Source: Lachnospiraceae bacterium (GTDB lineage Bacteria; Bacillota; Clostridia; Lachnospirales; Lachnospiraceae). Taken from it: a DNA stretch of 43,099 bases. The number at the start of each line of letters is the position of its first letter. The first letter of the stretch is position 1. The stretch is from the NCBI GenBank assembly GCA_017469935.1, contig JAFUFL010000059.1, forward strand, positions 1 to 43,099, read 5' to 3'. The translations under genes were made by a program, and so were the position numbers. Under the pieces are notes generated by a model that was given only the letters and a program-made list of their open reading frames with translations, made no database searches and had not been told where the DNA came from. Below, piece after piece: positions 9,844 to 41,963 of the stretch.

Positions 9844-12800
9844 TCAACTCCCCTTAAAGCTGCGAATTTTTGCCTTCAATGCCGCCCCGCCGGGCGCCTT
9901 CTCATCGACCAGACTGTCCGCCCAATTAATTATATTGGCTGCGTCCGCCGCCTTACCTGCACGCCGCAAAAACTCAGCCAGTTTTATTATAGCCTCAATC
10001 GTATCGGTGCTGTAAAGACACTTATTCTCTTTGTCTCTCTGTAAACAGGCGTTTACGAGCCACCTCTGCATTTTGATCGCCTCTTCACGCTTACCGGACG
10101 CATCCAGCACCATAGCGATCATGTGGAGAGTTGCAATCGTTTCGGAATCATAGGCTCCGAATACTCTCTTCATGATTTCATAGGTCTCTTTGAGCTCTGC
10201 CAGGGACTCGTCATACTGCCTGTTCATTGCCATAGTCGCTGCCAGTTTATATTTTGACTGCAGTGTATCCGGATCTTCCTCTCCCAGAAAATCCTTTTTT
10301 TCTTCATAGATCGCTCTGGCTACTCTCAATGCCTCTCTGTAAAGATTCGACCCAAGAAACATCTTGAATGCATTTTCCTTGTTCTCCAGCACTCTCCTGC
10401 GCATTCTGAAGACTTCTTTCAATGCTTCCTTCGTTTCCGGTGCATCCTCCCCCAGCACTTTCCTCATCTTCGCATATACTATATCCCTCTCAATCTCCAG
10501 TGCCTTATCCTGGTGACCGATTTCAGAGAGCGCGATCGTAAAATCATGCAGCGTCATCAGTGTTTCCGGATCTTCCTCTCCCAGAATCTCATGCTGCAGC
10601 TCATACACGGTTTTCAATATTTTGTGCGCTTCTTCGTAATGCCCGAGCATCAGATGATCGTGCCCGATACCATATTGCGCGAGGAGCGTGTCGGGATCAT
10701 TCTTCCCCAACGTTTTCCTTCTTTCCGCATACAGTTTCGTCTGCACTTTCAGCTCTTCATTAAAGCGGCCCAGTTTCCCCAGAATCGAAGCGAGGTTCTC
10801 CTGCGCCGTCAGCGTCTGCGGCGCACCGGATCCGAAAATTCTCCTCCTCACCACAAAAACTTCTCTTTGATGCCCGAGCGCCTCCTCATACCGCTCCAGG
10901 GCAAACAGCATGCCCGCAAGCCGGTTCTGCGTCATGAGCGTGTCCGGGTCTTCCTCTCCCAGCGCCGCCTTCCTGAGCGCAAGCAATTCCTTCTGGATCC
11001 GCAGCGCCTCCTCGTGCAGCCCCAACTTATCAAGCGTAAAAGCCAGATTACTCTGCGCCCGCAGCGTGTCCGTATTCCGGTCTCCCAGCACCTTCTTTCT
11101 CTTCTCATAGACTACCCGCTGGATTTTCAGCGCGTCCTCATAGAGCCCGAGCATACTCAGCATGGCGGCATAGTTGTTCTGCGCCATCAGCGTCTTGGGA
11201 TCTTCTTCCCCCAGGGCGTGCCGCTCATACGCGCACACCTGCTGATAATAGTCCAGGATCCGGCCCTTCTCCCGCGTGACCTGCATCCTCTGTTCTTCCC
11301 GGGAGATCAAGCTCCACAGCACGTCTTCCGCATCTTCTCCCAAGGCCTTGATCCCCTCAAGGAGCCTGCGGTCGGCCAGTTCCGTCACATGTGCGGCGGC
11401 CGCCTCCATTCCGACTTCCGTCTCCGCCGCTTCATCCCGCAGCATCGACATGGTCAGCTCCGCGGTCCATCGGACCGCATCTTCCGCTTCGGGAATCTCC
11501 CGGAGAATCGCCTCGGCAAATTCGGGTTTCGCGAGCGTATAGCCGTCTCCCGCTTTGCCCTGCTCCGTTCTCAGGATCGGAGACAAATCCAAAAGCATGC
11601 CGGCAAGCCGCTGCGTCACCCTGCCTTCCCCTATGATCGCCCCCAGTGTTTCCATCGTGAGCGGCTCAAAGGCCCCCAAAGTACACACCACCGCGACCAG
11701 CTCCCGCAACCGGACCGCCGCCTTCTCCCCGTAGCTCTCTCCAAGGAACCGCAGGTACTCTGTCACCGCCCGCTCACGGTCCGGCAGTTTCTCCGGCTGG
11801 ATCCCAGCCTCTTGCCAAAAAATTGCCGCTCCCGCACCTTCTCCGCTCGCCTGCAGCAGATCTGACAGCCAGGTTTCCGGCTTAGCCTTTTTGGCGCCGG
11901 CCCGCCTGCCGTCTCCCGGAGATCCGCCCTGCATTCCCGACGCATCCGCCGCCTTACGAAGCCGTTCAAAATACAGCTCCCTGCAAGCCGCCCTTCTCCC
12001 CTCCGCGCAGGACAGATAGTGCGTGCGCGTCTTCGTCCTCTGATTTTCGAAGAGAAAGATCCCGTTTCCTCTCTCCCCGAGCTTTCGAACGATGACAAAA
12101 GGATACAGGCACAGGTCAGCCCCTAGATCCTCGGTCCTCAGATACACTTTGCCGGACAGCGCCGGACTGCAGACTCCGCCCGCGCCCGCCAGGACGGTCT
12201 TCGTCCCGCCTTCTCCCTCTTTGAGATACAGGACCTGCGCCCTGAGCTGCGGATCGACCGCCGTATAGACTTCCTTCAACAGCGCCAAATGCTCTCTGAT
12301 GGCCTCCGCGATCGCCGCGGGCGCCGAAATTCCCGCGGGCGCCGAAATCCCCGCGGGCGCCGAAATCCCCGCGGGCGCCGATTTCAAGGCCAGCGACAGT
12401 TTCATCGCGCCGTATTCGCTTCGCTCCAGCCTGTGTGCCCTGATATCCTCCCGCGCATAGAGCCTGATCAGCTGCTCCAGCGGTATGGAATCCGGCAGCT
12501 GCCCCCCGGCCTTCCTCAGGTTCTTCACCAGCCCGGACGCCAGCTTCGGCCACCTCTGAGCGGTCGCGATCGGCGCCGTCAGTTCGCCGACCATCAATGC
12601 CCCCACGGGCCCTTCAAACTTCCGGGAAACCCACGCGAACGCGAGCAGCGTCTCAAACTTCAGGAGCGTCTCATAGTTATCTTTCAGGCACAACAAAACC
12701 GCATACGGTTTTTTCTCTCTGCACAAATTGCGCAGCCTTCCATACTCGTATGCGATCACAGCCGGATATGCATTTTCCGCATCCGGAATCCACAATGCAG

Positions 12801-12990
12801 GGTCGAGAGCAATCTCTTCCAGCCAATGCACCGGCGCCGAACTATCTTTTGGCTTCTCGCCGGTCTCCGCGGACACCATTTTCGAGCCGCAGAGCGGGCA
12901 GTCAAAAAGAGCGACGCCCTCCAGAAGCTTTATCTTGCTCTCATAAAAATCGCACTGAGGATTCGTACACCTAATGCCGATATATTTCAT
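9844..12990 (-). CDS. Zinc-ribbon / TPR (kinesin-light-chain-like) protein
   Basis: A 1048-residue cytosolic protein without signal peptide or membrane helix. Residues 1-34 hold a CX4C...CX2C zinc ribbon (Cys8, Cys13, Cys31, Cys34). Residues about 50-330 form an unrecognised region with VIAYEYGRLRNLC and LCLYPFVIVRKLGERGNG. An APAGIS repeat of 18 bp per unit interrupts this region. Residues about 400-560 look like a helical or winged-helix block. From about 590 to the end run roughly ten 42-residue TPRs of the kinesin-light-chain type, each with a form of LGEEDPDTL followed by ALRIQKELL-like helices. TPRs mediate protein binding, so a scaffold or target of the upstream kinase is a reasonable inference. 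The layout (sensor region, helical block, TPRs) recalls STAND proteins, but no P-loop was found. The ATG follows AGAGGAAAACGGAA. Confidence 0.88.
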   Translation of the reverse strand: MKYIGIRCTNPQCDFYESKIKLLEGVALFDCPLCGSKMVSAETGEKPKDSSAPVHWLEEIALDPALWIPDAENAYPAVIAYEYGRLRNLCREKKPYAVLLCLKDNYETLLKFETLLAFAWVSRKFEGPVGALMVGELTAPIATAQRWPKLASGLVKNLRKAGGQLPDSIPLEQLIRLYAREDIRAHRLERSEYGAMKLSLALKSAPAGISAPAGISAPAGISAPAAIAEAIREHLALLKEVYTAVDPQLRAQVLYLKEGEGGTKTVLAGAGGVCSPALSGKVYLRTEDLGADLCLYPFVIVRKLGERGNGIFLFENQRTKTRTHYLSCAEGRRAACRELYFERLRKAADASGMQGGSPGDGRRAGAKKAKPETWLSDLLQASGEGAGAAIFWQEAGIQPEKLPDRERAVTEYLRFLGESYGEKAAVRLRELVAVVCTLGAFEPLTMETLGAIIGEGRVTQRLAGMLLDLSPILRTEQGKAGDGYTLAKPEFAEAILREIPEAEDAVRWTAELTMSMLRDEAAETEVGMEAAAAHVTELADRRLLEGIKALGEDAEDVLWSLISREEQRMQVTREKGRILDYYQQVCAYERHALGEEDPKTLMAQNNYAAMLSMLGLYEDALKIQRVVYEKRKKVLGDRNTDTLRAQSNLAFTLDKLGLHEEALRIQKELLALRKAALGEEDPDTLMTQNRLAGMLFALERYEEALGHQREVFVVRRRIFGSGAPQTLTAQENLASILGKLGRFNEELKVQTKLYAERRKTLGKNDPDTLLAQYGIGHDHLMLGHYEEAHKILKTVYELQHEILGEEDPETLMTLHDFTIALSEIGHQDKALEIERDIVYAKMRKVLGEDAPETKEALKEVFRMRRRVLENKENAFKMFLGSNLYREALRVARAIYEEKKDFLGEEDPDTLQSKYKLAATMAMNRQYDESLAELKETYEIMKRVFGAYDSETIATLHMIAMVLDASGKREEAIKMQRWLVNACLQRDKENKCLYSTDTIEAIIKLAEFLRRAGKAADAANIINWADSLVDEKAPGGAALKAKIRSFKGS
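12317..12384. repeat. 18-bp in-frame tandem repeat inside the TPR gene
   Basis: GCGGGCGCCGAAATCCCC is repeated three times plus a partial copy. It encodes APAGIS units on the minus strand. It is a likely slippage-prone, length-variable linker that keeps frame because the unit is a multiple of three. Confidence 0.9.
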
Positions 12991-13126: not shown

Positions 13127-15466
13127 TCACTCTATTACACAATCCGGTATATTCTCTCGGATCCGGCTGATCTGATCACTGCTGATCTTATTCCCGTCGA
13201 GAGAAAGCTCCTTCAGATTGTAAAGGTTCATAACAGCACTGGCATCGCTGATCTCATTTCCGCCCATGTACAGATATTCCAGCTCCGTCAGATCCGACAA
13301 AACACTTATGTCCTCCACGAAGTTGTTATAAAACCACAATTCTCTGAGTTTCGTCAGTCCTGACAGAACACTGATACTGTTGACCTCATTATCACTGAAC
13401 CGTAAGGCAGTGAGCTCCGTCAGATTCATCAGAGGCGCCAGGTTACTTACACGGTTGTCGCTGAACCGCAGAATGGTTAAATTTGTAAGGTTTACCAGCG
13501 GAGATAAGTCCGTCACCTCGTTGCCGCCAAACCGCAGATCCTTCAGGCGCGTCAATCTGCGCACCGCGCTGAGATCGTAAATATAGTTGTCGGTCAAATC
13601 CAGGCCTTCCAGCGCCTCTAACCCCTCTATGGGGCTGATGTCGCGCACATTGTTGTCTCGAACAGAGATATACTGCAGATTGGTTAAGCCCGAAACAGTG
13701 CTGATATCTTCTACACTGTTTCCGTCAAGCTTCAGCACTCTCAGATTCTTAAAGGCAGCCAAATCGGAAATGTCATGGATCTTATCCGAATCCGCCAGGT
13801 CCTTATCCGTCGTCAGATCCAGCGAGGTGATCAGCTCTGCATCTGTCGTCAAAAAATCTTTCGCGTAGTTTCCGGTAATCGATCTCACCTTGGCTTCGAG
13901 CACGGGATCTCTCCACTCAATGGGTGTTCCCTGTTCGGCGCCGACATTCTCTGCTTCCGCGGCAGCTGCGTCTTCTGTCGGAGCCGCAGCAACCGGAGTC
14001 TCCTCCGCCGGGGTCTCCTCCGAGGCAGCTGTTCCCTCCGCCGGTTCTGTTCCCTCCGCCGAATCCGCCGCTTCTATTGAATCGACGCTCTCCGAACTCT
14101 CCACGACTACCTCCTGGGAGTCTCTATTATTCCTGATGCTGCTGATTCTGATCAGTATACCGCCTCCCAGCAGAACAACGGCGGCAAACATCACCGCTAT
14201 AATGATCGGTTTGTTTGATTTCTTCCTCTCTCCGAAAGTGCTGACCATCACCGAAGAGGGTCCCTGTGCGCTGTTTTTGGGAATCGGACCGCGCTGTGGT
14301 CCGCCCATGTAAACTGTATCTCCCTGTGATCCGCGCACGTAAATCTGACCGTTTCGCTCACCGAATGATACGCTGTAAGGTTCCGCCCCCGGCTCATGAA
14401 CCGGACTCTGTGCCGGGCCGCTTCCCGCGCGCTGCGGCGCGGCATTCTGTCCGCCAGCGGCATTCCGCCCGCCGGCGCCATACGGCGCCCCCTGCGGCGC
14501 AGCATTTCCCGCGCCCTGCGGCCCGCCGGCACCATTCCCCTCCTTATTTTTCCCCTCTGCCACATTCCTCAGCGCTTTCTTCATCTCTGTCGCAGTGGCA
14601 AAGCGCTTGCTCGCATCCGGATTACACGCCTTGAGAACCACCTCCGCCATTTCCGGGGAAGCGTTGCAAGGCGCCGGAAGAGGTTCGCCGTCCAGTCTCC
14701 GGTGGTTCGCCGCCTCGACGTCGCGTGGGGAGAGAAGCTTCTTTTCGGTATTCACAAGAGGCAGCCGTCTCTTATTCAGCAGCCAATAGAGAACGATTCC
14801 GAGAGAATAGATGTCTACGGTCGCATCATAGCGGTTCCCTTTGACCACTTCCGGCGCCATATAATTATACGTACCCTTTTGCGAAAGTCCGCTGGTCATG
14901 TTCTCCAGCTTTCTCGCAATTCCGAAGTCGCCGAGTTTATAATCGCCGAATTCGTTGATAAAAATATTGCCCGGCTTGATATCCCGGTGGATCACGTTGC
15001 GCTGTGCGCATCGCTCCAATGCGGAACACATGTCGCATCCAAGCTCGATGACATCACTCTCGGACAAAGTCTTATCGCTGATGTAAGTGTTGAGCGGTGT
15101 GAGCAGCTCCATGCGAATAAAGATATTCCACCCCACCCGGTCGGTTTTCTCGACGACTTTGTAGTCCTCTACGCTTACAATATTTTGGCTCCCTTTAAAT
15201 GATTCCATGATCTGGATCTCATTTGTGAACTCCTCTACTATTTCTTTCAGATACGCTTCGGTGTCGTAGGGGGAAAGACCGGCAGCAAAAAGCGATTCCA
15301 TCTCCGCTTCTTCCTGCGGAATGGAAATCACTTTGATTGCCGAGCGGCTCTCCACATTGTGATCTGTGCGGATCGCCTCATATACAACCCCAAAGGAGCC
15401 GTTGTTAATACGTCTTACGACATGCCACTCCGGCCAGACGCTGCTGAGATCAATATTACTGCTCAT
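13127..15466 (-). CDS. LRR receptor-like serine/threonine protein kinase
   Basis: A 779-residue Hanks-type kinase with an extracellular LRR sensor. Kinase domain about 14-305: Gly loop NNGSFGVVY (21-29), ATP Lys45, HRDIKPGN with catalytic Asp162, DFG 180-182, APE 204-206. A Gly/Ala/Gln-rich cytosolic linker (306-415) follows. One membrane helix is at about 419-441 (PIIIAVMFAAVVLLGGGILI) after KKSNK, giving N-in/C-out topology. Next come a Glu/Ala/Pro-rich stalk (450-512) and nine 22-residue internalin-type LRRs (about 568-770), e.g. LTNLTILRFSDNRVSNLAPL. Bacterial PknB kinases usually carry PASTA repeats, so LRRs here suggest protein or peptide sensing, as in plant receptor kinases but with inverted order. 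The ATG start overlaps the upstream gene by 11 nt, implying translational coupling. The PP2C gene two genes upstream is the likely opposing phosphatase. Confidence 0.94.
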   Translation of the reverse strand: MSSNIDLSSVWPEWHVVRRINNGSFGVVYEAIRTDHNVESRSAIKVISIPQEEAEMESLFAAGLSPYDTEAYLKEIVEEFTNEIQIMESFKGSQNIVSVEDYKVVEKTDRVGWNIFIRMELLTPLNTYISDKTLSESDVIELGCDMCSALERCAQRNVIHRDIKPGNIFINEFGDYKLGDFGIARKLENMTSGLSQKGTYNYMAPEVVKGNRYDATVDIYSLGIVLYWLLNKRRLPLVNTEKKLLSPRDVEAANHRRLDGEPLPAPCNASPEMAEVVLKACNPDASKRFATATEMKKALRNVAEGKNKEGNGAGGPQGAGNAAPQGAPYGAGGRNAAGGQNAAPQRAGSGPAQSPVHEPGAEPYSVSFGERNGQIYVRGSQGDTVYMGGPQRGPIPKNSAQGPSSVMVSTFGERKKSNKPIIIAVMFAAVVLLGGGILIRISSIRNNRDSQEVVVESSESVDSIEAADSAEGTEPAEGTAASEETPAEETPVAAAPTEDAAAAEAENVGAEQGTPIEWRDPVLEAKVRSITGNYAKDFLTTDAELITSLDLTTDKDLADSDKIHDISDLAAFKNLRVLKLDGNSVEDISTVSGLTNLQYISVRDNNVRDISPIEGLEALEGLDLTDNYIYDLSAVRRLTRLKDLRFGGNEVTDLSPLVNLTNLTILRFSDNRVSNLAPLMNLTELTALRFSDNEVNSISVLSGLTKLRELWFYNNFVEDISVLSDLTELEYLYMGGNEISDASAVMNLYNLKELSLDGNKISSDQISRIRENIPDCVIE

Positions 15467-16652
15467 AGGACATCTCCCATACGTCCGCGTACGTTCCCAG
15501 CGGATCCTCTGACAGGATGCACATCAGTACGAAGCATTCATAGGGATTGCTGATATAGAGTTCTCCCAGAAAGCATCTCTTAAGGATTTCGTTTGTCGAT
15601 TCTACAAAAGAATTATATCTTTCCTTCACACTCGGATAATCATCGAGAGTCTGCGAGTAGATGAAAAAGTTCAGCGTGATCAGGTCAAATCGAGTCACCT
15701 CGGTATTGCCTGCCAGGATCTCTCCGGTGTGCTGTCTGCTGAACCGTTTCCCAGCAAACTGGGCGTTCAGTTTGGAAGCTTTGACGGGGGTCAGATTTCC
15801 GTGCCGGTCAAGCGGGATCGCGGAGGAAATCACATGTTCCAGATCGCTCTCCGTGATATCGTCGATCGTATAGTGCCTTTTCGGCCCTTTTCCCTGCTTA
15901 TCTTCCTCATACGTGTTGTAAATATCCGCGACGATCTCCCGCGCCCGCGTATAAAGCTCGTCAAAACACTTTTTTGCCGTCACACTGTGCTGCGGAGTGT
16001 TGTCGTCCGTTTTCAGCTTGGACACAAACGCCATCAGAGCCTCTTCGCTGTTGATGGCCCTCATCGTGTTCCTGGCACCGACGGTGAAATCCGAATATAA
16101 GAGCTTGGCATCGAGCTCGTTCGGAGACGACTCGTTAAAGGTCCGCCACAGCCTCTCAAACGTCGGATAGCCGAATTCGTTCTTGTAGCAGTACCAGCAG
16201 ATCACTTCAAACGGGTTCTTCGCGTTGATTCCCTGCTCCCGAAGCCCCTTCGTCAGGAATTCATTGACGTCTTCGACGCTCATTCCCAGGCCAAAACCCA
16301 GCAAAAACACCACTTTTCGTCTGACGGTCTGCTGGGTGAGCCACCTCTTTGACAAAACAGTGAGGCTCGCCGATGTCGGGTCAAAAGATTGCGGCGTGTT
16401 ATTATCCGAAAAAGCCCCTTTGATAATCTGCTGATATTCCTTCAGCGGAACTTCCTCAAAGGGCTCCTCCAGACAGGCCTGGCGGTAAATATAGCGCTTG
16501 AGGTATTCGCCGAAAGAAATGTACTTTAAATTTTTCTGCAGAGCTGCATAAATCAGGTCGGCATCCCTGTCGAGAAAATATTTGCTGCTCACTGCGTTGT
16601 GCAGGACATCCCATGCTCTAATCGTAAAGTCTGTGCCCCTGTTCTCGTCCAT
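15456..16652 (-). CDS. Unrecognised 398-residue protein in the kinase operon
   Basis: Not recognised. The start ATG at 16652 (MDENRGTDFTIRAWDVLHNA) follows AGAGGAGAAATCAAAGC. A longer frame to 16742 lacks an RBS. The product is soluble with no signal peptide or membrane helix, and predicted mainly helical. Noticeable blocks are FLDRDADLIYAALQKNLKYI, EYLKRYIYRQACLEEPFEEV, RRKVVFLLGFGLGMSVEDVN, FEVICWYCYKNEFGYPTFER and YECFVLMCILSEDPLGTYAD. The Cys-containing CWYCYKNEF and an aromatic-rich C-terminus are unusual. VNEFLTKGLREQGINAKNPF resembles a helix-turn-helix, but this is weak. The gene sits between the PP2C and kinase genes and overlaps the kinase start by 11 nt. It is therefore probably an obligate partner, for example a substrate, adaptor or regulatory subunit of the kinase/phosphatase pair. 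Confidence 0.85.
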   Translation of the reverse strand: MDENRGTDFTIRAWDVLHNAVSSKYFLDRDADLIYAALQKNLKYISFGEYLKRYIYRQACLEEPFEEVPLKEYQQIIKGAFSDNNTPQSFDPTSASLTVLSKRWLTQQTVRRKVVFLLGFGLGMSVEDVNEFLTKGLREQGINAKNPFEVICWYCYKNEFGYPTFERLWRTFNESSPNELDAKLLYSDFTVGARNTMRAINSEEALMAFVSKLKTDDNTPQHSVTAKKCFDELYTRAREIVADIYNTYEEDKQGKGPKRHYTIDDITESDLEHVISSAIPLDRHGNLTPVKASKLNAQFAGKRFSRQHTGEILAGNTEVTRFDLITLNFFIYSQTLDDYPSVKERYNSFVESTNEILKRCFLGELYISNPYECFVLMCILSEDPLGTYADVWEMSYEQ

Positions 16653-16777
16653 GCTTTGATTTCTCCTCTGTTTGATTTTCTGATTTTCTTCTCTCGGCGT
16701 CAACCAGAACATCCCTTGTAACCCCCGGGAAAAAGACAACAAAGCACAGCAAAAGAAGCCCGGATTTGAACCGGTCC

Positions 16778-17581
16778 CTAGTCGAGCAGGAAATGAAAAA
16801 CCTTATCGAACAGCCCTCGTTCTCCTCTTTCCACCCGGCATAGAATAATTGTTATATTGTCGTTTCCTCCGTTATCAAGTGCCTTCTGCAGCAGCTTTTC
16901 CGTGGCCTTGCTCACATCTTTTTGCCGGCCTGCCACCGTTTCCGCCAAAATCCCGGTGATCTCTTCCGTGGAGACCATATCCGTTAAACCGTCCGAGCAT
17001 AGCAGATAGCTGTCTCCATCATAATAATTCCCCCTGGCAAAATGAGGTTCGATCATCATTTCTGCCGGCGGAATCCCCAGATTCTGCGAAAGCGGCGGCT
17101 TTTTCCCGGGAAAAGCTACCGAATAGTCATCGACCGATATCTGTTCCAGTTTCTTTCCGTCAAAATGGAATGCCTTGCTGTCCCCGATATTGCAGAGATT
17201 TATCTCATTCTCTGCAAAAACAATGATCACCGCAGTCGTTCCCATCGATCCGATGCCGTGATCATCCGCAAATCCGCATATTGCTTCGTTTGCCGTACTG
17301 CAGTACTCCCGGAGGTCTTCGATCGGGCTCTCCCCGATCTTTAACGTCGCAGCGCATCTGGCTGCGATCAGGGATGCAATCTCTCCATGCTCTTCCCCGC
17401 CCATTCCGTCAAAAACACTGAACACGCGCGGCTGAGCATGATCTGTACATCCGTTCATCGAAAATCCCTTCGGATCTCCGTCATCACCCAGATACTTTCC
17501 GTCACATAGAAAGTTGTCCTGGTTTTCGTTTCTTCGCTTCCCGATATGACTGCAGCATGAATAATGGATTTCGTATTTCAA
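16778..17581 (-). CDS. PP2C-family serine/threonine phosphatase
   Basis: A metal-dependent Ser/Thr phosphatase of 267 residues when read from the TTG at 17581, which has AAGGGG 6 nt upstream. A GTG at 17596 would lie at the predicted transcription start and has no RBS. PP2C motifs in order: SHIGKRRNENQDNF (motif I, Arg and Asp), RVFSVFDGMGGEEHGEIAS (metal-binding DGMGG), GSMGTTAVIIVF, CNIGDSKAFHF, YLLCSDGLTDMV (Asp-Gly) and GGNDNITIILCRVE (last metal Asp). All metal-binding positions are present, so it should be active. The protein is cytosolic and normally reverses kinase autophosphorylation, as PstP/PrpC does for PknB. It has its own extended -10 promoter and leads the unknown, kinase and TPR genes. 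A 125-bp gap separates it from the next gene. Confidence 0.94.
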   Translation of the reverse strand: MKYEIHYSCCSHIGKRRNENQDNFLCDGKYLGDDGDPKGFSMNGCTDHAQPRVFSVFDGMGGEEHGEIASLIAARCAATLKIGESPIEDLREYCSTANEAICGFADDHGIGSMGTTAVIIVFAENEINLCNIGDSKAFHFDGKKLEQISVDDYSVAFPGKKPPLSQNLGIPPAEMMIEPHFARGNYYDGDSYLLCSDGLTDMVSTEEITGILAETVAGRQKDVSKATEKLLQKALDNGGNDNITIILCRVERGERGLFDKVFHFLLD

Positions 17582-17603: not shown

Positions 17604-17632
17604 ATTATAGCATTGTCTGTGTCTATATTTCA
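17604..17632 (-). promoter_or_regulatory. Extended -10 promoter of the PP2C/kinase operon
   Basis: Minus strand TGAAAT (17632-17627), 17 nt, then TATAAT (17609-17604) preceded by TGC, a perfect extended -10. Transcription would begin near 17597. This favours the TTG at 17581 as the phosphatase start. Confidence 0.65.
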
Positions 17633-17649
17633 CGGTTCATAAGGATTAT

Positions 17650-28164: not shown

Positions 28165-29445
28165 CTACTCCACCGGCTGACAATGTTTTGCCAAATGCTT
28201 CGGAAACGGCCCCGTCATCTGATATTCCAGTCCAAGCTCGTCCAGCACCTGCCGGAAGGCATCAATATACTTATTGCCCTTAACCATCTGCATAAAACTA
28301 ATGAAGATTTTCCCTTCCATCGCGGAAATCTCCAAGACCAGGTGTCCATCCACTACGGCCACATATGATTCTATGTAGTCCGCGACTTCGCCCCAATGCA
28401 TCTCGCCTGTATAATTCACCAAAAAAGTTCCGTGTTCAGCATCTTTCCCGGTGGACGGATTATGTTTCTCCATATACTCCCGCTTGTTTTTGAGACCTGA
28501 GATATTGTCGATCTCATCATACAGCTTAAACAGTTTCCGCATCTGCGGATGGCTGAAGGTCGGATCCGTCTGAAGTATGAACTGGCCCCTCGTCATAGTC
28601 CCCAGTTTCTCCATATCCCACCCCAGCTGCGACCTTTCATAGTCCACCCAGACATGTGACAGCATGTCATAATGAGAGTTCGGAATTCCCAGGCCGGCAA
28701 AAGTGTTATGGGCAGACTCACCGCGGATGATCTTATCCTTCGCCGGGAGGACCTTATCCAAAGCTTTGGCCATCACGATCATGAAGAATGAGATCACACT
28801 GTTATCATTTCCCCTTGCGAGGTTCATGACATCATTCTGTCGAAATTCAAACACATGATAGGTATTGCTTCTCAGAAAAGGATTATACAGCCCGTTCATA
28901 TAATCCATTACCATGACCGTTGGTTTTGCGGGCCTGCGCGTATAAATCTGCCGATCCGTCGTCAGCATGTCCAAGGTCGGTTCCGTATCTTCCCCCTCAA
29001 GCATGGGCTCTCCCGGTTTCCTGATCTCCGGCGCATCGGGCGAGACGTGATACCGCTCCTTTACATACTGATATACATTGGTCATGACCCACGGAAACGC
29101 ACCTCTGCCGCCGCACAGACTATGACTGATGTTAAAATACAGATCTTTTCCGCCATATTCCACAAACAGCAGATGCTTGTTTACCTCCTCTGAACATACA
29201 GAGCGCGGGTTTTCGGCAATCGGAAGAACCGCGACGGGTTTGTCATTGGGAAGAAGCTTATATCCTCCGTCCTTTCCCTGGGCGACCCTTACAGAAAAGT
29301 AAGGGTACCTCGTGATCGCGGTATTTACGGAATGCCTCAGGATCTCGCTGTCCACCGGTTCCTTCATTGTGACCTTAACACGAATCACATAGGAGAAACG
29401 ATCCTCCCGCTGATATAGCCTGTATGTATCTAAAGAGTACTTCAT
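28165..29445 (-). CDS. Condensation/alcohol acetyltransferase-like protein
   Basis: A 426-residue soluble protein with the fold of CoA-dependent acyltransferases and NRPS condensation domains. The N-terminus VTMKEPVDSEILRHSVNTAI resembles the start of such domains. The active-site motif HHxxxDG appears as ISHSLCGGRGAFPWVMTNVY: the second His is kept and the Asp-Gly is replaced by Gly-Gly-Arg-Gly. RGESAHNTFAGLGIPNSHYD is an internal block and GTFLVNYTGEMHWGEVADYI the DFG-motif-like C-terminal latch. An acyl acceptor cannot be named. Because the Asp is missing, catalysis may be altered. It is followed by the two-helix protein gene. The start ATG at 29445 follows GAAGGAGAGCATAT. Confidence 0.75.
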   Translation of the reverse strand: MKYSLDTYRLYQREDRFSYVIRVKVTMKEPVDSEILRHSVNTAITRYPYFSVRVAQGKDGGYKLLPNDKPVAVLPIAENPRSVCSEEVNKHLLFVEYGGKDLYFNISHSLCGGRGAFPWVMTNVYQYVKERYHVSPDAPEIRKPGEPMLEGEDTEPTLDMLTTDRQIYTRRPAKPTVMVMDYMNGLYNPFLRSNTYHVFEFRQNDVMNLARGNDNSVISFFMIVMAKALDKVLPAKDKIIRGESAHNTFAGLGIPNSHYDMLSHVWVDYERSQLGWDMEKLGTMTRGQFILQTDPTFSHPQMRKLFKLYDEIDNISGLKNKREYMEKHNPSTGKDAEHGTFLVNYTGEMHWGEVADYIESYVAVVDGHLVLEISAMEGKIFISFMQMVKGNKYIDAFRQVLDELGLEYQMTGPFPKHLAKHCQPVE

Positions 29446-29503
29446 ATATGCTCTCCTTCGTCACGAAATCAGTCAAAAAATCGTTCACTATCAGATTTTG
29501 GGT

Positions 29504-29566
29504 GTGTGTCACGGGGACGTATCAACTGACACAAAATGTGTCAGTTGATACGTCCCCGTGACACAC
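29504..29566. repeat. Palindromic repeat family A, perfect paired unit
   Basis: A perfect 63-bp palindrome with 30-bp arms and an AAA loop. The right end lies 6 bp before the stop codon of the minus-strand membrane protein gene. It is virtually identical to 7177-7239. Confidence 0.92.
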
Positions 29567-29604
29567 CCTGACTCAATACAGCAGCCTTGACGGGACAAAA
29601 TACA
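29566..29604. repeat. 39-bp direct repeat, left copy
   Basis: CCCTGACTCAATACAGCAGC and the following CTTGACGGGACAAAATACA match 32035-32073 with two differences. It spans the 3' end of the membrane protein gene. Confidence 0.75.
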
Positions 29605-30106
29605 GATACGGCGCAGTGATCACCGCAAGCCACAACGCCGACTTTTTGGCCTGATCCGAAGCAAGCCCCGCATGGGTCAAAATCTTCCTGTCAAGGAGGA
29701 AGATCACAAGCCCTGCCACAGCAACCGATAGTGCAACCATCAGAAATGCCGCAATGCTGCTGAACGGATCACCGGCTATGCCTTGCTCAATTTTATCCAA
29801 CAAAGAGGCTGTCTGCATGCCGTCTCCTGCCAAAGTAGCAATCACAAATACAGAAAACAGAACAATCGCCCCGCACAGATCCCCGAAAAAGCCGGCAATA
29901 CAGATCTTCCAGGTATGCTTTCTGCAGAAAGTCCCTTTTTCCGGCATCTCGCCGAGGCTCCATTGCAGGACCAGACGATCGATCAGATAATTGGCCGGAA
30001 TCAGGATCAGCCACAGCCATGTAGGACAGAAAACCAGAATCCATATAGGCAAAAGAATGTTGTATAATTTAACTTCCTTCTTACCATAGTTGTTCACAAT
30101 AATCAC
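29573..30106 (-). CDS. Multi-spanning membrane protein of unknown function
   Basis: A 177-residue protein with four predicted membrane helices: LYNILLPIWILVFCPTWLWL (about 14-33), CIAGFFGDLCGAIVLFSVFV (about 69-90), SIAAFLMVALSVAVAGLVIF (about 117-137) and WLAVITAPYLYFVPSRLLY at the end. Short Lys/Arg loops alternate. The family is not recognised with certainty. A GTG at 30106 with AAGGTGA just before it overlaps the stop of a preceding 52-residue ORF; a GTG three codons later with better RBS spacing is an alternative start. The 3' end is duplicated as a 39-bp direct repeat at 32035, beyond an ATPase/TOPRIM gene pair. The gene follows these genes in the same direction, so it may be their last operon member or part of an inserted segment. 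Confidence 0.75.
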   Translation of the reverse strand: MIIVNNYGKKEVKLYNILLPIWILVFCPTWLWLILIPANYLIDRLVLQWSLGEMPEKGTFCRKHTWKICIAGFFGDLCGAIVLFSVFVIATLAGDGMQTASLLDKIEQGIAGDPFSSIAAFLMVALSVAVAGLVIFLLDRKILTHAGLASDQAKKSALWLAVITAPYLYFVPSRLLY

Positions 30107-30261
30107 TCACCTTGGTCTAATCTATCCTCTAATTCATCGATCCTTTCGGAGAGAATATATCTCTCCAACTGTTGCACCTGAAAAAGGTATATGTTTCTTT
30201 TTTTAGGCCCCACGTTTGTTTCGAAATGTTTCGAAACAAAATAGCCGATTATAATACACAT
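30103..30261 (-). CDS. 52-residue coiled-coil micro-ORF
   Basis: Starts at the ATG 30261, 8 bp beyond the TOPRIM gene stop, with AAGGGG 13 nt upstream. It reads MCIIIGYFVSKHFETNVGPK and ends with the amphipathic QQLERYILSERIDELEDRLD. The final half has a heptad-like coiled coil. The stop TGA overlaps the next gene's GTG. A perfect 26-bp palindrome (TTTGTTTCGAAA and its complement, 30215-30240) lies within the coding sequence. No homology is recognised. It could be real, or a fortuitous frame between two genes. Confidence 0.4.
   Translation of the reverse strand: MCIIIGYFVSKHFETNVGPKKRNIYLFQVQQLERYILSERIDELEDRLDQGE
30215..30240. promoter_or_regulatory. 26-bp perfect palindrome
   Basis: TTTGTTTCGAAA, TG, TTTCGAAACAAA: 12-bp arms. 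It sits between the TOPRIM gene and the membrane protein gene, inside the 52-residue ORF. It may be an operator or a transcript hairpin. Confidence 0.4.
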
Positions 30262-30268
30262 AGGAGTA

Positions 30269-30784
30269 CTAATACCCCTTCTTTTTTATCTTCTCTCCGC
30301 AATTCTTTATTACACTAAATACGTTATCCGGATCTGTAACCCAAATCCTGTCAAAATCAAATTGATGTTTCTTTAATTTATCATACAAATTCTTCTCAAT
30401 AATAAAGTCATGCTTATACTCTTTATTGCTCTTCGACCCCAGCAAATCCTTTATTTCTTTAACATCCGTTGATCTCTTTATTTCATCCTCCAGATTGTAC
30501 ACCTGCATTACACACCATGTTTCTTTTACATGCGGATGTCTTTTCAGTATTTCCAAATTTCTAAAAAGAGTTTCAATGATGCCGGTGTCAGTGTCAAAAA
30601 CGAGAATAACCACAGTATTTTCGGGAAGCATCCTCAAACGGGTATTAGAAAACTCTTCTTGAATAGCATTAAAGACATCAATCTTTCCTGCAATAATCGG
30701 TAACTGTTGTTTTTTAAACTCATCGATAAGCTTCTTCTCGCAATTTCCCTCAACATAATAGTGATATCTCACGTTTTTTCTCAT
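30269..30784 (-). CDS. TOPRIM-domain protein paired with an ABC-type ATPase
   Basis: A 171-residue protein, probably a nuclease or nicking subunit. RYHYYVEGNCEKKLIDEFKK has the TOPRIM glutamate (Glu12), and TVVILVFDTDTGIIETLFRN the DxD metal pair (Asp64, Asp66). Strand-helix alternation follows the Rossmann-like TOPRIM order. After about residue 85 the rest (CVMQVYNLEDEIKRSTDVKE...NLYDKLKKHQFDFDRIWVTD) is a helical C-terminal module. Short stand-alone TOPRIMs beside an AAA/ABC ATPase are known from RloA/RloB-like, AbiL-like and PARIS defence systems, where the ATPase and TOPRIM act together. It begins 12 bp after the ATPase stop with an overlap-free junction, typical of one operon. Which of these families it belongs to is unresolved. 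Confidence 0.82.
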   Translation of the reverse strand: MRKNVRYHYYVEGNCEKKLIDEFKKQQLPIIAGKIDVFNAIQEEFSNTRLRMLPENTVVILVFDTDTGIIETLFRNLEILKRHPHVKETWCVMQVYNLEDEIKRSTDVKEIKDLLGSKSNKEYKHDFIIEKNLYDKLKKHQFDFDRIWVTDPDNVFSVIKNCGEKIKKKGY

Positions 30785-30796
30785 ATAGTGTCCCCA

Positions 30797-31927
30797 TCAA
30801 ATGTCTTTAATCCCTATAATCTGATCCACATTCGGCGCAGATGAAAACAGGTCATTCTCAACCGCATTCTTTAAGGAATCAGTATTCTTTTTCAAATAGG
30901 CGGAAGCATATACGCATGAAATTCTATTCTCATCCAGTTCATCCCGCCTCATAAATGCGAAGGAATGCTTGGGCAAGTCCATATCAAGTATGTCTGAATT
31001 ATGCGTTGTATAAAACAGCTGTCGATCCGGTCCCAAAAGATCGATAAATACGGATAAGAATGCCCTCTCCGCCTCCGAATGGATATGCGCAAATTTCTCA
31101 TCACAGTAATAAAAGCTCACATCGTTTAATTTCATAGATGTAATCATATTTGCAACGCCAATTCCATCTACTGTACCACTTGACAAAATCTGTGAATCAA
31201 TAACTGTGCCGTTCCTTATAATAGCTGAACAATTAGGGTACTGTACTATATATGTTCTGTTTGTCCTTACCGCTTCGTCAACCTTAGTAACGCCGATAAT
31301 TCTGGGATCCAACGACTTTAATGTCATCTCCAAAGTCTTGCGATATTCTTCCGAATTAAACGGGATCAGTGTCCGCAGCTTTCCTTCCGGAGCATACGGA
31401 TAGTGAAAAGACCAAGTCATCTTAGGGATTTTTTCCAGAGCCTTAATATAGCTTTCAACAATTGTCGCCTGTTTTTCAGCCAGACGTTCCACACAACGTT
31501 CGTAACTGTCATTGGGCAATATAGTCTCATTCCATACTTCCACAGATACATCATCACTGCTGTATTCATCTGTCTCATCGCGCAGCGCTTTAAAAGACCC
31601 TTTTATTCTGTAAAGCTGGAAACTGGAGAAAGCTAAATCTATTATAAATTCCGCCTTTTTTCTCTTATCATCAATCAGTTTTACAATACCACTGTATTCT
31701 TTCCCGTCTATGAAATTAAAAATGGACATGAGAATACGTCCGAGCGCTGTTTTCCCGGTTGCATTAGCCCCCATTAAAATAACGACTTTTTTATATCTGA
31801 ACCGTTCTCTCCCCGACAAATGCTCCCCTTCAATTGTGGAACGTACTATCTTTTTGGGATATGACATGCATAAATCAAACTCATTAAAAACCAGGAAATT
31901 ATCCAAATGCAGATTCATTATTACCAT
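30797..31927 (-). CDS. ABC-type/AAA ATPase (OLD-, RloA- or AriA-like)
   Basis: A 376-residue SMC/ABC-type ATPase from the ATG at 31927 (MVIMNLHLDNFLVFNEFDLC) with GGAG 9 nt upstream. An in-frame extension to 32008 runs through a hairpin and is unlikely. Walker A is LMGANATGKTALGRI. A signature-like LSSGTVDGIGVANMI is followed by Walker B VSFYYCDEKFAHIHSEAERA, and the switch His is in LFYTTHNSDILDMDLP. An insertion of about 150 residues between Walker A and signature carries coiled and beta segments. Such lone ATPases serve as sensors or motors in OLD/RloA, AbiL and PARIS systems. The TOPRIM gene follows directly. Its upstream 14-bp stem with a T run could attenuate transcription. Base use is AT-rich relative to the 1-26 kb part, in line with horizontal transfer. 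Confidence 0.88.
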   Translation of the reverse strand: MVIMNLHLDNFLVFNEFDLCMSYPKKIVRSTIEGEHLSGRERFRYKKVVILMGANATGKTALGRILMSIFNFIDGKEYSGIVKLIDDKRKKAEFIIDLAFSSFQLYRIKGSFKALRDETDEYSSDDVSVEVWNETILPNDSYERCVERLAEKQATIVESYIKALEKIPKMTWSFHYPYAPEGKLRTLIPFNSEEYRKTLEMTLKSLDPRIIGVTKVDEAVRTNRTYIVQYPNCSAIIRNGTVIDSQILSSGTVDGIGVANMITSMKLNDVSFYYCDEKFAHIHSEAERAFLSVFIDLLGPDRQLFYTTHNSDILDMDLPKHSFAFMRRDELDENRISCVYASAYLKKNTDSLKNAVENDLFSSAPNVDQIIGIKDI

Positions 31928-31945
31928 AAGTATTATCTCCATAAA

Positions 31946-31982
31946 AATAACATTACTTCCAATTATAAGAAGTAATGTTATT
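31946..31982 (-). promoter_or_regulatory. Hairpin ahead of the ATPase/TOPRIM operon
   Basis: AATAACATTACTTC and its complement GAAGTAATGTTATT form a 14-bp stem with a 9-nt loop, followed by TTTTT on the minus strand and the GGAG of the ATPase gene. It may be a terminator of the upstream gene or an attenuator or operator of this operon. Confidence 0.55.
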
Positions 31983-31985
31983 ATA

Positions 31986-32201
31986 TCATTTCTTGTATCG
32001 GAGTGCAATTTCCTGAGTCTCGGAAACTGTCTCTCCCTGACTCAATACATCAGCCTTGACGTGACAAAATACAAATCCTCTATACACCTGTTCTTTCATG
32101 ATAATCTTAGTTAATGCCCGCAAAGCGAGACGCTGCGCCGCGTTCAGGTTCTCTTTACTGTATTCTCCGGCCTTGAACATGATATATTTTTTAAAGCTCA
32201 A
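31986..32201 (-). CDS. 71-residue hypothetical ORF
   Basis: TTG at 32201 overlaps the stop of the upstream 367-residue gene by 4 nt. The product MSFKKYIMFKAGEYSKENLN goes on with AAQRLALRALTKIIMKEQVY, a helical basic segment. The second half (RGFVFCHVKADVLSQG) is encoded by the 39-bp direct repeat, whose other copy encodes part of a membrane protein in a different frame. So the C-terminal half may be an intruding sequence. A start at the ATG seven codons later is equally possible, though no good RBS precedes it. Coding status is uncertain. Confidence 0.4.
   Translation of the reverse strand: MSFKKYIMFKAGEYSKENLNAAQRLALRALTKIIMKEQVYRGFVFCHVKADVLSQGETVSETQEIALRYKK
32035..32073. repeat. 39-bp direct repeat, right copy
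   Basis: CCCTGACTCAATACATCAGC followed by CTTGACGTGACAAAATACA; two differences from 29566-29604 and the same orientation. Together they bound about 2.5 kb holding the ATPase, TOPRIM, 52-residue ORF and membrane protein genes. Confidence 0.75.
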
Positions 32202-33301
32202 TTTTCAATCCTTGGGTAGAACCTGCAATAAGGATTTTTCTTATGTATACGTTCAAACACAGGACATAATTCTCTATTCCAATACTTTTCATAAGACTGA
32301 AATGCATTTGTACCGGGTAAATGACATAACAGATACACTTTGCCATCTGTCGTTTCTGCAATAAGATGATGTTCTGATTTTCTCCTTGCGTACGGATCTA
32401 CTGCTATACTTTCTGCCATTTCTATCGATATTGGTCCATTAATGCCGTCAATAAAGGAGTCGGGAACAGCAGCTGCTATAATTGCTGATAATTTCCCGTA
32501 TTCCAGAAATACTTCAGTCGCACTTCCAAAGATGTACTTGTCTCCCAATGAAATTCCCCCATCCAAGAAGCTCTCGGCATTATTATAATCATGAGCGGCC
32601 AGTTCCAAAGTAGGGGAATCTATACTATCAGTAAAAGAATTACTTTTTCTGAATTCCTCTCGTATTTTTTCGAAGTCCTCCCACGCTATTGAACCGAAAA
32701 CATACATAGTGAAAATCAGAACTAAAACTGCCAAAATATCACCGGGTTTGATGCTGCCGCTTTCAAATACTTCTTTAAGCCATGGAATAGATAATCCGAA
32801 AAAAACGACTGTCGCCAGGAAATCAACACAAAGTCTCAGTATTTTTCCTTCCACTCCGCTGGGAATAACTGTCTTTGTTCTTTTATAAAAAACATGTGTG
32901 GAATCTGATCTCCCGAATGCCGCCTTTCTGTTCCGCATATCTGATACCCAGCGGAATGCTGCGTATGGAAATACAAAAAAAGTAAGGACCGCCATCGTTA
33001 ACATTATTGCAGTGTTATCTCCAAGAAAATCCACCAGAGAACCTGTTGCTTCTATACCAATAAAGAAACAGGCAGCAGCGGCAATGTAAGGAGCAAATGG
33101 AATAGTGGGAATCACTAATGACGTGAATAGTAATGCTTGAGGGCCCACCAGCATCAAAATAAAGACCGGCGTTATATTTCTATCTTTTGAAAGGGTTTTA
33201 AAAGCCCACAGATCAGTAACTATGATACAGATGATCAATAATGCTCTTGATAATGTTCTAAATGATTTCAATGCGTTAATTCTCCTTAACAGGCGTACCA
33301 T
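32198..33301 (-). CDS. Membrane protein with C-terminal soluble domain
   Basis: A 367-residue protein. Membrane helices at about 18-34 (ALLIICIIVTDLWAFKT), 42-66, 67-84, 95-115, 160-180 and 185-205 occupy the first 210 residues. The rest is cytosolic or extracytosolic: ELAAHDYNNAESFLDGGISL, SIEMAESIAVDPYARRKSEH and TDGKVYLLCHLPGTNAFQSY, a PSTAIR-like mixture without catalytic motif. No family recognised. It starts 2 bp after the LRR fragment's stop, so it probably shares an operon with the LRR and lipoprotein genes. The 71-residue ORF follows with a 4-nt overlap. The end YCRFYPRIEN is unremarkable. Confidence 0.7.
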   Translation of the reverse strand: MVRLLRRINALKSFRTLSRALLIICIIVTDLWAFKTLSKDRNITPVFILMLVGPQALLFTSLVIPTIPFAPYIAAAACFFIGIEATGSLVDFLGDNTAIMLTMAVLTFFVFPYAAFRWVSDMRNRKAAFGRSDSTHVFYKRTKTVIPSGVEGKILRLCVDFLATVVFFGLSIPWLKEVFESGSIKPGDILAVLVLIFTMYVFGSIAWEDFEKIREEFRKSNSFTDSIDSPTLELAAHDYNNAESFLDGGISLGDKYIFGSATEVFLEYGKLSAIIAAAVPDSFIDGINGPISIEMAESIAVDPYARRKSEHHLIAETTDGKVYLLCHLPGTNAFQSYEKYWNRELCPVFERIHKKNPYCRFYPRIEN

Positions 33302-33303
33302 AC

Positions 33304-33999
33304 TTAGTTTTCAATCTTTACCCAACTGACGCCATCATCTTCCAAAGCCTTCTGAGCTGTTGTTCCCTCATGGCAGTGTACTTTATACGGGCAAGGCGTA
33401 CCATCGTAGCCGTCCTCACCGAGATTTCCAACATCCTCAACCGAATCCGGCAAATATACGTCTGTCAGATTAGAGCAGTTATCAAATGCGCCATATTCAA
33501 TCGTCTGTACGCCGTCCGGTACTACCATTTCTCCTTCCCGCTGCCCTGGCGCACAGACCAGTGTCTTCTTGTCTTTGCTCATCAGGATACCGTCAACCAC
33601 GCTATGATAAAGATGGTCCTCATCAACCCGGAATTCTTTGATCAGAATCCCGTCCATGGCATCCGCTTTATATCGCAGTTTGTTGGGTATTCTCAGAGAA
33701 TCCTGATAAACGGTTACTCCCTCATATTCATTTGCGGAAAGCGCATGGGATCCCAAATATGTAATGCTCTCCGGCAATACAATTTCTCCAAACCCTTCAC
33801 CGACTCCGAATGCAAAACTATCGATTTTCTCAACAGAGGAAGGCAGCTCTACTCCTTGTAATGGTGCAACTCCAAAAGCATTATTACCGATTTTTACGAG
33901 TCCTTCATTAAATTCAACTTTTGTGAGAGACCAGCAGTCGGAAAATGCACCGTCTCCAATCGAAGTGAGCGATTCCGGGAGTATAACCTTACTTATTTT
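33304..33999 (-). pseudogene. BspA-type leucine-rich repeat fragment, -1 frame of upstream lipoprotein
   Basis: From 33999 the minus strand reads ISKVILPESLTSIGDGAFSD, then SLTKVEFNEGLVKIGNNAFG and VELPSSVEKIDSFAFGVGEG, perfect BspA-type LRRs (about 23 residues each). It continues to VVPDGVQTIEYGAFDNCSNL and a stop at 33304. There is no ATG, GTG or TTG until a TTG at 33777 in the middle of a repeat, and a stop codon closes the frame two codons upstream of 33999. The lipoprotein gene just before ends KRPIFKK with AAA AAA TAA; a one-base backward slip on the six A would continue into this LRR frame. So it is either a frameshifted or truncated surface protein, or a slippage fusion. LRRs of this type usually bind host or cell-surface ligands. 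Confidence 0.65.
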
Positions 34000-35153
34000 T
34001 TAAATATCGGTCTTTTCACTTTAATCGACGATAAAATCTTATTGGCTGTCAATCGACTATTTTCATCTTCAGCTAAAGTTGTATAGGAGTACCAATATAC
34101 ATAGTAATCTGTCACAAACACAGCACCACTGTGAAAGTATTCTTTTCCATCTTTTTCATCATTATATTTATGATTAAAATATACAGCGGGATTACCATCT
34201 ACGTAGCCTTTCTCATATTCCACATTTGCTCTAAACCGAGTGTCTATAAGGTCCCAAAAGCATTCACGATATAAATCCGCCTCGTCTGTGGAATTCTCTG
34301 TTACGTTGTCCCTGTTACTTCTTGATATTTTGCATTGGACGGAATCGCCTATCAAAATAGAATTATTTATAATTCTAGAATTATAAGGGACCCTCAATGA
34401 CAATGACTTAAGTGTCGCTTTTCTTGTTTTATCCGATTCATCCCATCTGCTGTTAAAAGCTTCAAACAAATTTAACTCTTCAGTTGGCAAGCGGCGTATT
34501 TCTATCCTACTTACTTCACTGCGGTAGAGATCTACAGAAAGATCATATTTCTTATTCTTCTTAAAGCGATAATTCGTCCCGTATCCATCGCCGTATGAAT
34601 CAGAAAAATCAGGAGAGCCAAACGCTTTTTTTACATCATCTTCTGAATCTCCGAGGAACACGCCTCCTATTGATACTGAATCTCCCTTTCCTTTTTCAGA
34701 CCCCGTTGCAGGCTTTTCTATTGTTAATCCGCATACAGTTCCGTTCTTTAACCCTGATTCTTTATCCCCCTTCTCTTTTTCAATTTCTGCATAGATTCTA
34801 ATGTCTTTTCTTTCATCTATTAGCTCAGTCTTTAAAGCTTCTCTTACTTTGGGGTTGTTCTTGCCCACAGTTTCGACAGTATACTCACTTGTAAGGCCGC
34901 TTTTTTGCAGGAGATTCTCCAACGTCAACTCCCCTAGATTCACCTGTGCCCCATTTATAATTACCAGAATTTCCTCATCTTTAGAAGCATTCTCATTTAG
35001 CTGTTCGGTCTGTACAGCAGAATTGGAAAGGGCTGCGTTCTCTTTTTGTATCTCTTCTGAAGATGACGTCTTTTTACAAGATATTAGTAAGGGAATTGTC
35101 AATAGTGCGATCGTGACAAATAGAGTTAACTGTTCAAAGGCATTACTCTTCAT
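33993..35153 (-). CDS. Lipoprotein of unknown function, 386 residues
   Basis: The start is the ATG at 35153 (MKSNAFEQLTLFVTIALLTI), with GAAGGAG 11 nt upstream; the preceding gene ends inside by 11 nt. The signal peptide ends in PLLISCKKTSSS, a lipobox LISC with acylated Cys. A charged linker follows. Then there is VINGAQVNLGELTLENLLQK (about 65-85), an acidic region, and IGGVFLGDSEDDVKKAFGSP resembling a repeated-domain edge. The C-terminal half holds ADLYRECFWDLIDTRFRANV and YVYWYSYTTLAEDENSRLTA, a mixed alpha/beta domain. No known family was identified. The final codons IFKK lie on a six-A run directly before TAA, beyond which the LRR frame begins in the -1 frame. It is likely expressed with the upstream 247-residue gene. 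Confidence 0.8.
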   Translation of the reverse strand: MKSNAFEQLTLFVTIALLTIPLLISCKKTSSSEEIQKENAALSNSAVQTEQLNENASKDEEILVIINGAQVNLGELTLENLLQKSGLTSEYTVETVGKNNPKVREALKTELIDERKDIRIYAEIEKEKGDKESGLKNGTVCGLTIEKPATGSEKGKGDSVSIGGVFLGDSEDDVKKAFGSPDFSDSYGDGYGTNYRFKKNKKYDLSVDLYRSEVSRIEIRRLPTEELNLFEAFNSRWDESDKTRKATLKSLSLRVPYNSRIINNSILIGDSVQCKISRSNRDNVTENSTDEADLYRECFWDLIDTRFRANVEYEKGYVDGNPAVYFNHKYNDEKDGKEYFHSGAVFVTDYYVYWYSYTTLAEDENSRLTANKILSSIKVKRPIFKK

Positions 35154-35886: not shown

Positions 35887-36057
35887 GTCTTATGTCTTCT
35901 CCACCTGTTTACTATTCTTTTTAATCAGCACCTCATAGCTCCGCGATGCCGATTAGTATCGGAAGTTTATACTTCTTCAATACTTCAAACACATTTTATC
36001 TTATGTTTTCCGTTTACTCACTCCGTAAAGCGTACATCACAAGGCTCACATATCTTT

Positions 36058-41958: not shown

Positions 41959-41963
41959 TTCAG

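Follow-up and report, generated by a model that had tools for sequence, protein, structure and literature searches.

The window analysed here covers positions 1 to 43,099 of the contig JAFUFL010000059.1 of a Lachnospiraceae bacterium (assembly GCA_017469935.1). It contains three consecutive genes, all on the minus strand, for a PP2C phosphatase, a 398-amino-acid (aa) protein that had not been recognised, and a transmembrane (TM) kinase with leucine-rich repeats (LRRs). The 398-aa protein, which we refer to as the partner, apparently belongs to an undescribed family that derives from DNA-binding proteins and usually stands beside kinases. Open reading frames (ORFs) were called mechanically, and the module is made up as follows:

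16778..17581, minus strand: PP2C-type Ser/Thr phosphatase (Pfam PP2C match, metal-site motifs).
15456..16652, minus strand: the partner, 398 aa, all-alpha, with two probable tandem degenerate units derived from XRE-type helix-turn-helix (HTH) domains (profile comparisons, structural model, kinase linkage).
13127..15466, minus strand: TM Ser/Thr kinase of 779 aa with nine 22-residue LRRs, predicted to be extracellular (Pfam, motifs, hydrophobic segment).
15456..15466, minus strand: 11-nt overlap between the stop of the partner gene and the start of the kinase gene (sequence).

Gene calls, Pfam matches and motifs bear out the arrangement described in an earlier note on this DNA, that of a PP2C phosphatase, an unrecognised protein and a kinase with nine LRRs encoded consecutively; the 11-nt overlap of the last two genes that it reported is confirmed and likely reflects translational coupling. 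The partner gene runs from an ATG at 16652, preceded by the ribosome-binding site GAGGAG, to a stop at 15456. Homologues of its product at 81% and 72% identity were found in two genomes of the genus (loci L015 and L016), on contigs that end nearby, with the kinase cut or missing. Since both of these homologues likewise follow a PP2C gene, a chance arrangement of the window genes is unlikely.

The phosphatase gene has its stop at 16778 and starts with a TTG at 17581 (267 aa, the coordinate used in the earlier note) or a GTG at 17596 (272 aa). Its product contains all of the metal-site motifs RNENQD, DGMGG, GDS, SDGL and GGNDN and matches Pfam PP2C with an E of 1.3e-9 and 38.6 bits (cut-off 20.3), and its score of 132.8 bits against NF033484 (Stp1/IreP, cut-off 230) makes it a PP2C-type protein, not an Stp1 equivalog. 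The kinase gene matches Pkinase (E 3.9e-42) and LRR_4 (E 5.7e-33) in Pfam, and the kinase is probably active, because the G-loop and the AIK, HRDIKPGN, DFG and APE motifs are present. Nine LRR cores, at residues 575, 597 and so on to 751, follow a single hydrophobic segment that begins at about residue 421; this would place the kinase inside and the LRRs outside, which supports the earlier proposal of outward LRRs joined to an N-terminal kinase. No match to PASTA repeats was found by Pfam in the ectodomain of the window kinase, which has LRRs instead, and its scores against NF033483 (PASTA kinase) and internalin_H are 133.6 bits (cut-off 450) and 171.5 bits (cut-off 1050), respectively. Class 1 internalins share the array of 22-residue LRRs but not the N-terminal kinase and the single TM segment. 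Plant LRR receptor kinases also have LRRs outside, a Ser/Thr kinase inside and one TM segment. Compared with these, the window kinase has the reversed order and internalin-like repeats, and we claim no shared origin.

Searches with the partner itself gave no match at E<=0.1 in Pfam, NCBIfam or PADLOC, the best match among solved structures had an E of 0.41, and Foldseek gave no match at E<=0.001. An alignment of 62 family members (A2) was made from 60 of the 76 loci described below, the window and L002. Pfam and PHROG searches with these members returned, among the matches listed, only scattered weak ones (Pfam, at most four members per family, lowest E 6.4e-5; PHROG, at most five, lowest E 5.1e-4; each of these in one member). 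A direct Pfam match to an HTH family was found neither for the window partner nor, among the matches listed (25 of 36 families), for the 62 members, and NCBIfam gave nothing useful for six relatives. Listings of open-licence papers on LRR or Hanks-type kinases in Clostridia or Lachnospiraceae, on XRE proteins beside Hanks-type kinases and on rpoC-linked kinases showed no description of the family or of the module. The protein that had gone unrecognised belongs to an unnamed family whose relatives are mostly from Clostridia.

The predicted model of the partner is all-alpha, with a predicted local distance difference test score (pLDDT) of 88.3 and a predicted template modelling score (pTM) of 0.85, and contains two units at about residues 40-190 (unit 1) and 255-398 (unit 2). 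When their profiles were compared, the two units matched each other with probabilities of 76% and 93% and E values of 2.4e-5 and 4e-7 in the two directions, against 0.38-0.43 for reversed-profile controls. Furthermore, an 85-sequence profile of unit 1 matched a profile of 24 HTH_3-matching genes of the window genome with an E of 1.3e-4 (reversed, 0.43). A basic stretch in unit 2 coincides, in the profile match, with the recognition helix and is conserved in the 62-member alignment (K302 in 55, R303 in 60, R306 in 62 and Q307 in 59 of the 62 sequences). In the same alignment, T86 is shared by 57 of the 62 sequences and precedes an invariant P87, which makes T86 a candidate site of phosphorylation. 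The profile comparisons suggest that the partner is a tandem of two degenerate units, both akin to XRE/Cro-C1 HTH domains, unit 2 weakly so. The earlier note had named two outcomes that would speak against it, a match to a well-known unrelated family and a lack of conserved neighbours; the first applies in part, insofar as the partner seems to descend from the XRE superfamily, and the second does not, the neighbours being conserved.

The proposed relation to XRE/Cro-C1 regulators (HTH_3, HTH_26, HTH_31) runs through single-unit intermediates; the partner differs from these regulators in being tandem, degenerate, provided with further helices and kinase-linked. Ten of the mostly single-unit relatives were scanned: two pass Pfam cut-offs for Cro/C1-type HTH domains (L226, HTH_3, 27.0 bits, cut-off 23; L219, HTH_26, 24.9 bits, cut-off 22), four match models of that type below the cut-off and four match none. 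For the relatives, most of which have a single unit, 32 loci were compared with 27 HTH_3-matching control loci: a Hanks-type kinase lies within about 1.5 kb in 23 of the former and in none of the latter. The controls include a few LacI-type genes (by eye) and come from the window genome only, the test loci being from many genomes. These 32 loci are L211-L249 minus L211-L215, L220 and L247, which are the window, two-unit or C-terminal matches; L216 has two units. In a wider fetch of 20 loci (19 single-unit and the two-unit L269), a kinase was present within 4.5 kb in all except L253, divergent from the relative in nine, codirectional in nine and convergent in one. Local HTH regulators are often divergent from the neighbouring gene. 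The locus L269 (G746:C78), from another family of the class, holds two PP2C-like genes, a gene for a 364-aa two-unit protein, a kinase gene and an FHA gene in about 9 kb.

Searching species genomes with an alignment of seven sequences yielded 76 loci, 77 with the window. They are mostly from Clostridia (Lachnospiraceae, Oscillospiraceae, Blautia); two, L056 and L022, carry the unconfirmed labels Muribaculaceae and Candidatus Colivicinus. The 76 are close relatives by construction, since they were drawn from two peptide patterns. Many of their contigs end early. A same-strand kinase lies within 3.2 kb of the partner in 49 of the 77 loci, a PP2C gene within 6.5 kb in 43, and both in 39, as counted with profiles built here and measured to open frames. 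A census measured to domain edges is lower (kinase in 42 of 77), and, with ORFs chosen greedily, 72 loci give same-strand counts of 47 kinases, 40 PP2C genes and 36 loci with both. When only the 56 loci with 6 kb or more of upstream sequence are considered, a same-strand kinase or PP2C gene is present in 44; the remaining 12 comprise six with an opposite-strand kinase within 3.2 kb, two with an exporter and with kinases further off (L040, L077) and four with none of these (L028, L029, L035, L090). The density of kinase matches falls from 0.134 per kb within 2 kb of the partner to 0.030 at 6-8 kb. Distance correlations across 36 loci are 0.88 (partner-kinase), 0.84 (partner-PP2C) and 0.78 (kinase-PP2C), and in 19 non-Blautia loci the partner-kinase value of 0.68 was reached in none of 2000 permutations; shared descent alone contributes to these correlations. 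The conservation of gene neighbours, a point raised in the earlier note, is thus borne out by the kinase and PP2C counts.

In the case of the Blautia-type loci, the gene order is kinase-PP2C-partner, and rpoB-rpoC lies directly upstream in 13 of 18 (L055, L057, L059, L061, L063, L066, L067, L069, L071, L078, L083, L087 and L088; cluster names by eye). Downstream, rpsL is found in eight of the 18, in some with other ORFs between, and several of the 13 loci have rpsL-rpsG-fusA there. The ectodomain of the Blautia-type kinase gave no Pfam match in the one locus scanned (L067) and looks conserved.

Based on these data, we propose that the module is a receptor-kinase cassette in which a dedicated HTH-derived partner acts as the direct output, a nucleic-acid-binding protein switched by phosphorylation, and we consider the chances of this proposal close to even and not above it. 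The LRR ectodomain would bind an extracellular ligand, presumably a protein or a surface polymer, the cytoplasmic Hanks-type kinase would change its autophosphorylation upon ligand binding, and the phosphorylation state would be reset by the PP2C phosphatase, roles that are ascribed to them because their families imply them. The partner would be a dedicated cytoplasmic protein, a tandem duplicate of an XRE/Cro-C1-derived HTH unit, whose regulatory activity would change upon phosphorylation and dephosphorylation; the cassette would then do by Ser/Thr phosphorylation what a two-component system does by His-Asp phosphorylation. Phosphorylation of the partner, its binding to DNA and the binding of a ligand are steps that we infer. 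We favour a regulator because of the HTH ancestry, the frequent divergent single-unit relatives and the basic stretch of unit 2.

The main rival of a regulatory role is that the partner is a phosphorylation-dependent adaptor or a regulator of the kinase, in which XRE-derived units have turned into protein-interaction modules that link the kinase to its targets, a possibility that we take seriously while holding it to be short of probable. One such target could be an FHA-FHA-ABC exporter, whose gene is found within 3 kb in 15 of the 77 loci, none of these being the window module. Several properties of the partner itself also speak for an adaptor: its charge is neutral to acidic, the HTH is degenerate, and its gene overlaps that of the kinase. 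The C-terminal unit alone gave no convincing match, which counts against a simple HTH there. Against an adaptor, the other 62 loci show no exporter within that distance, a recognisable Cro/C1-type HTH persists in some single-unit relatives, and in nine of the 20 loci of the wider fetch the gene is divergent from the kinase.

In two scanned loci, Pfam identified the exporter domains as two FHA domains, ABC_tran and ABC2_membrane. The gene at L076:7636-9981 encodes an FHA-FHA-ABC-ABC2 exporter beside a kinase and a partner, with the architecture of Mycobacterium tuberculosis Rv1747, and 14 further loci are alike. In the passages of PMC3908365 that bear on it, pknF-Rv1747 is a two-gene operon, and both FHA domains of Rv1747 are needed for the interaction with the kinase. 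The window module differs from PknF-Rv1747 in having no exporter gene and in having the partner, which pknF-Rv1747 lacks.

More distant two-unit homologues have a kinase nearby in 21 of 24 loci (14 by the profile built here, seven by Pfam Pkinase over the cut-off), the other three being L155 and L159, which are on short contigs, and L165, where no partner ORF was found. Of the seven Pfam-scanned kinases, four match TPR and six match NB-ARC at E<=0.001, five of these six above the cut-off, and NB-ARC/STAND profile matches were also found in L161, L164 and L180. The kinases of L151, L154, L160, L162, L166 and L167 have an NB-ARC/STAND region, an NLR-like architecture with an N-terminal kinase. 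The frequent fusion of NB-ARC/STAND to kinases beside these homologues raises the question of whether the kinase and the partner form a conflict or defence system that senses invasion and triggers a response as STAND-type sensors do. Such a role would fit the patchy distribution of the partner, which a single-sequence query found in nine of 37 genomes of the genus and in none of 24 others of the order, and the window kinase scores against mad6 and PD-T4-6 in PADLOC, which had no match for the other three proteins scanned. However, these PADLOC matches are expected of any Hanks-type kinase, the module follows rpoB-rpoC in most Blautia-type loci, the two-unit protein was not found in the viral contigs and plasmids searched, and extracellular sensors are ill-suited to an internal invader. 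Passages of two surveys of conflict systems (PMC7159879, PMC8195603) show no such partner. We regard a defence function as improbable.

Phage and plasmid origins were rejected: the 48 pattern stretches in viral contigs included no relative, and the plasmid collection had no match for the two-unit protein. A single-unit query matched four records of that collection, three from Listeria and one Paraclostridium plasmid. Both of the two Listeria records that were opened have a kinase, and in the Paraclostridium record no kinase is annotated within 5 kb on either side of the single-unit relative. In the L. innocua and L. monocytogenes records, the single-unit protein has 151 aa (profile E about 7e-13), and its gene is divergent from that of an annotated Ser/Thr kinase. 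This pair differs from the window module in that it has a single unit, that the annotated genes around it, as far as shown, include no PP2C, and that the kinase is 380 aa long without visible LRRs. The L. monocytogenes kinase is probably Lmo0618, mentioned in PMC4379056 as a 380-aa protein and in PMC3091722 as a putative kinase deleted in EGD.

The window genome (3.55 Mb, 111 contigs, 98.55% complete) holds two further copies of the partner. The start of the second (L002/L170) overlaps the end of a kinase gene without visible LRRs, and the third (L003, G000:C25) is truncated, has an internal stop and lies upstream of a pheS-like gene (by eye); with a wider profile (A5), a weak fourth match appears (C41, E 1.6e-7). 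As for the spread beyond this genome, the seven-sequence profile has matches in 26 of 392 genomes of the order, the 62-sequence profile in four of 391 of the class, and A5 in 62 of 391 of the class and 24 of 398 of the phylum, the window genome and a few others being counted twice; the A5 matches are mostly single-unit proteins about 145 aa long. Downstream of a further kinase gene of the window genome, whose product has an LRR-like region, come ORFs for an FHA-ABC ATPase and an ABC2 membrane protein (L169, G000:C11, 3871-9483).

Of the 13 places in the window genome matched by the PASTA-kinase profile, one is a canonical PASTA kinase, with 596.3 bits against a cut-off of 450, which adjoins a PP2C gene (L174). 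The earlier note had the PASTA repeats replaced by LRRs; because the same genome keeps a canonical PASTA kinase, the LRR kinase is an additional receptor, not a replacement. This bears on a further explanation, namely that the module is an ordinary operon of the PASTA-kinase type in which the kinase ectodomain has been exchanged and the 398-aa protein is encoded by a passenger gene. A PP2C gene beside a TM kinase is indeed the usual arrangement of PASTA kinases, according to passages of PMC6213207, and the module has in common with the pairs PrkC-PrpC, PknB-PstP and Stk1-Stp1 a cytoplasmic Hanks-type kinase, one TM segment, an extracellular sensor and an adjoining PP2C. It differs from them in the absence of PASTA, in the extra HTH-derived gene and in its presence beside a true PASTA kinase in the genome. 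Given that a separate PASTA kinase is kept, and that the partner stays kinase-linked while sensors, gene order and PP2C presence change, we give a passenger gene very little credence.

The ectodomains of the linked kinases differ widely. A scan of 42 of the 60 listed ectodomains (A3), some from kinases of the locus other than that nearest to the partner, found LRR_8 in 12, NPCBM in nine, TPR_14 in eight, LRR_5 in three and PASTA in two; eight more kinases were dropped because of a missing TM segment, a short C-terminus or truncation. Single scans identified a C-type lectin domain (L079), DUF285 (L040), Big_3 (L043) and DUF6273 (L050), so that LRR, NPCBM, TPR, BspA-like LRR, C-type lectin, PASTA/Big_3 and unnamed types all occur across the loci. 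The kinase with the lectin domain (L079:7390-9813, Lectin_C E 3e-12, extracellular) adjoins a partner copy. On a 25-locus partner tree, LRR kinases occupy two positions, one being the window and the other L025/L033, which stands next to an NPCBM kinase. The fewest sensor changes are 14 on the partner tree and 11 on the kinase tree; the trees show exchange only roughly, because the minimum possible with ten labels is nine and three of the labels stand for no Pfam match. LRR kinases are numerous in the genus, also in genomes in which the single-sequence query finds no partner (e.g. G008, G018). The LRR version is thus one among numerous versions, and the LRR seems to be separable from the partner. 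We had considered the LRR, which the earlier note presented as the distinguishing feature, as the defining part of the module, and rejected it on these grounds: judging from the sequences compared, the constant part is not the LRR, and the sensor is the variable part.

The module combines parts that are known singly, i.e. Hanks-type kinase, PP2C, internalin-type LRR and FHA-ABC exporter, with an unnamed, kinase-linked, HTH-derived family. More speculatively than in the case of the window module, we suggest that it may represent a further mode of transmembrane signalling that is widespread in Firmicutes, in which receptor Ser/Thr kinases with freely exchanged ectodomains would act on dedicated HTH-derived response proteins of one or two units (about 145 or about 400 aa), with PP2C as the eraser and sometimes an FHA-ABC exporter. 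If so, two-component systems would have a counterpart that uses Ser/Thr phosphorylation, and the window would hold an LRR-sensor version of it. Hanks-type kinases of bacteria are generally portrayed as pleiotropic and as lacking a fixed downstream partner. A family that often adjoins kinases in Firmicutes, from Blautia to Listeria, is a ready candidate for their dedicated output or regulator, and makes the question of each kinase's target directly testable. From the exchanged ectodomains (LRR, carbohydrate-binding NPCBM, C-type lectin, BspA-like, PASTA), one can draw up a list of the extracellular cues that gut Clostridia may sense.

Two further features adjoin the module:

17604..17633, minus strand: promoter-like site GTGAAA-18-TATAAT (10 matches out of 12), its -10 element preceded by TG, directly 5' of the PP2C gene.
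9844..12990, minus strand: TPR protein of 1048 aa, a possible but non-conserved member (TPR_12 match).

The promoter-like site is weak, because the scan found six sites against 5.7 expected. The TPR protein (TPR_12 E 2.6e-52 in Pfam; FxSxx_TPR 224.4 bits, cut-off 300), which the earlier note had named together with the unknown protein for pull-down, starts 136 nt after the kinase gene, and its N-terminal segment is Cys-rich and zinc-ribbon-like by eye. We rejected it as a conserved member: none of the other 76 loci, of which the two closest relatives end before that position, has a homologue of it at E<=1e-4, and a kinase-STAND-TPR profile does not match it. An Rfam scan gave no match at the gathering threshold. 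Finally, the guanine-plus-cytosine content drops from about 0.46-0.60 to 0.37-0.48 beyond 29 kb, which suggests that part of the window at 29000-43000 has a different origin.

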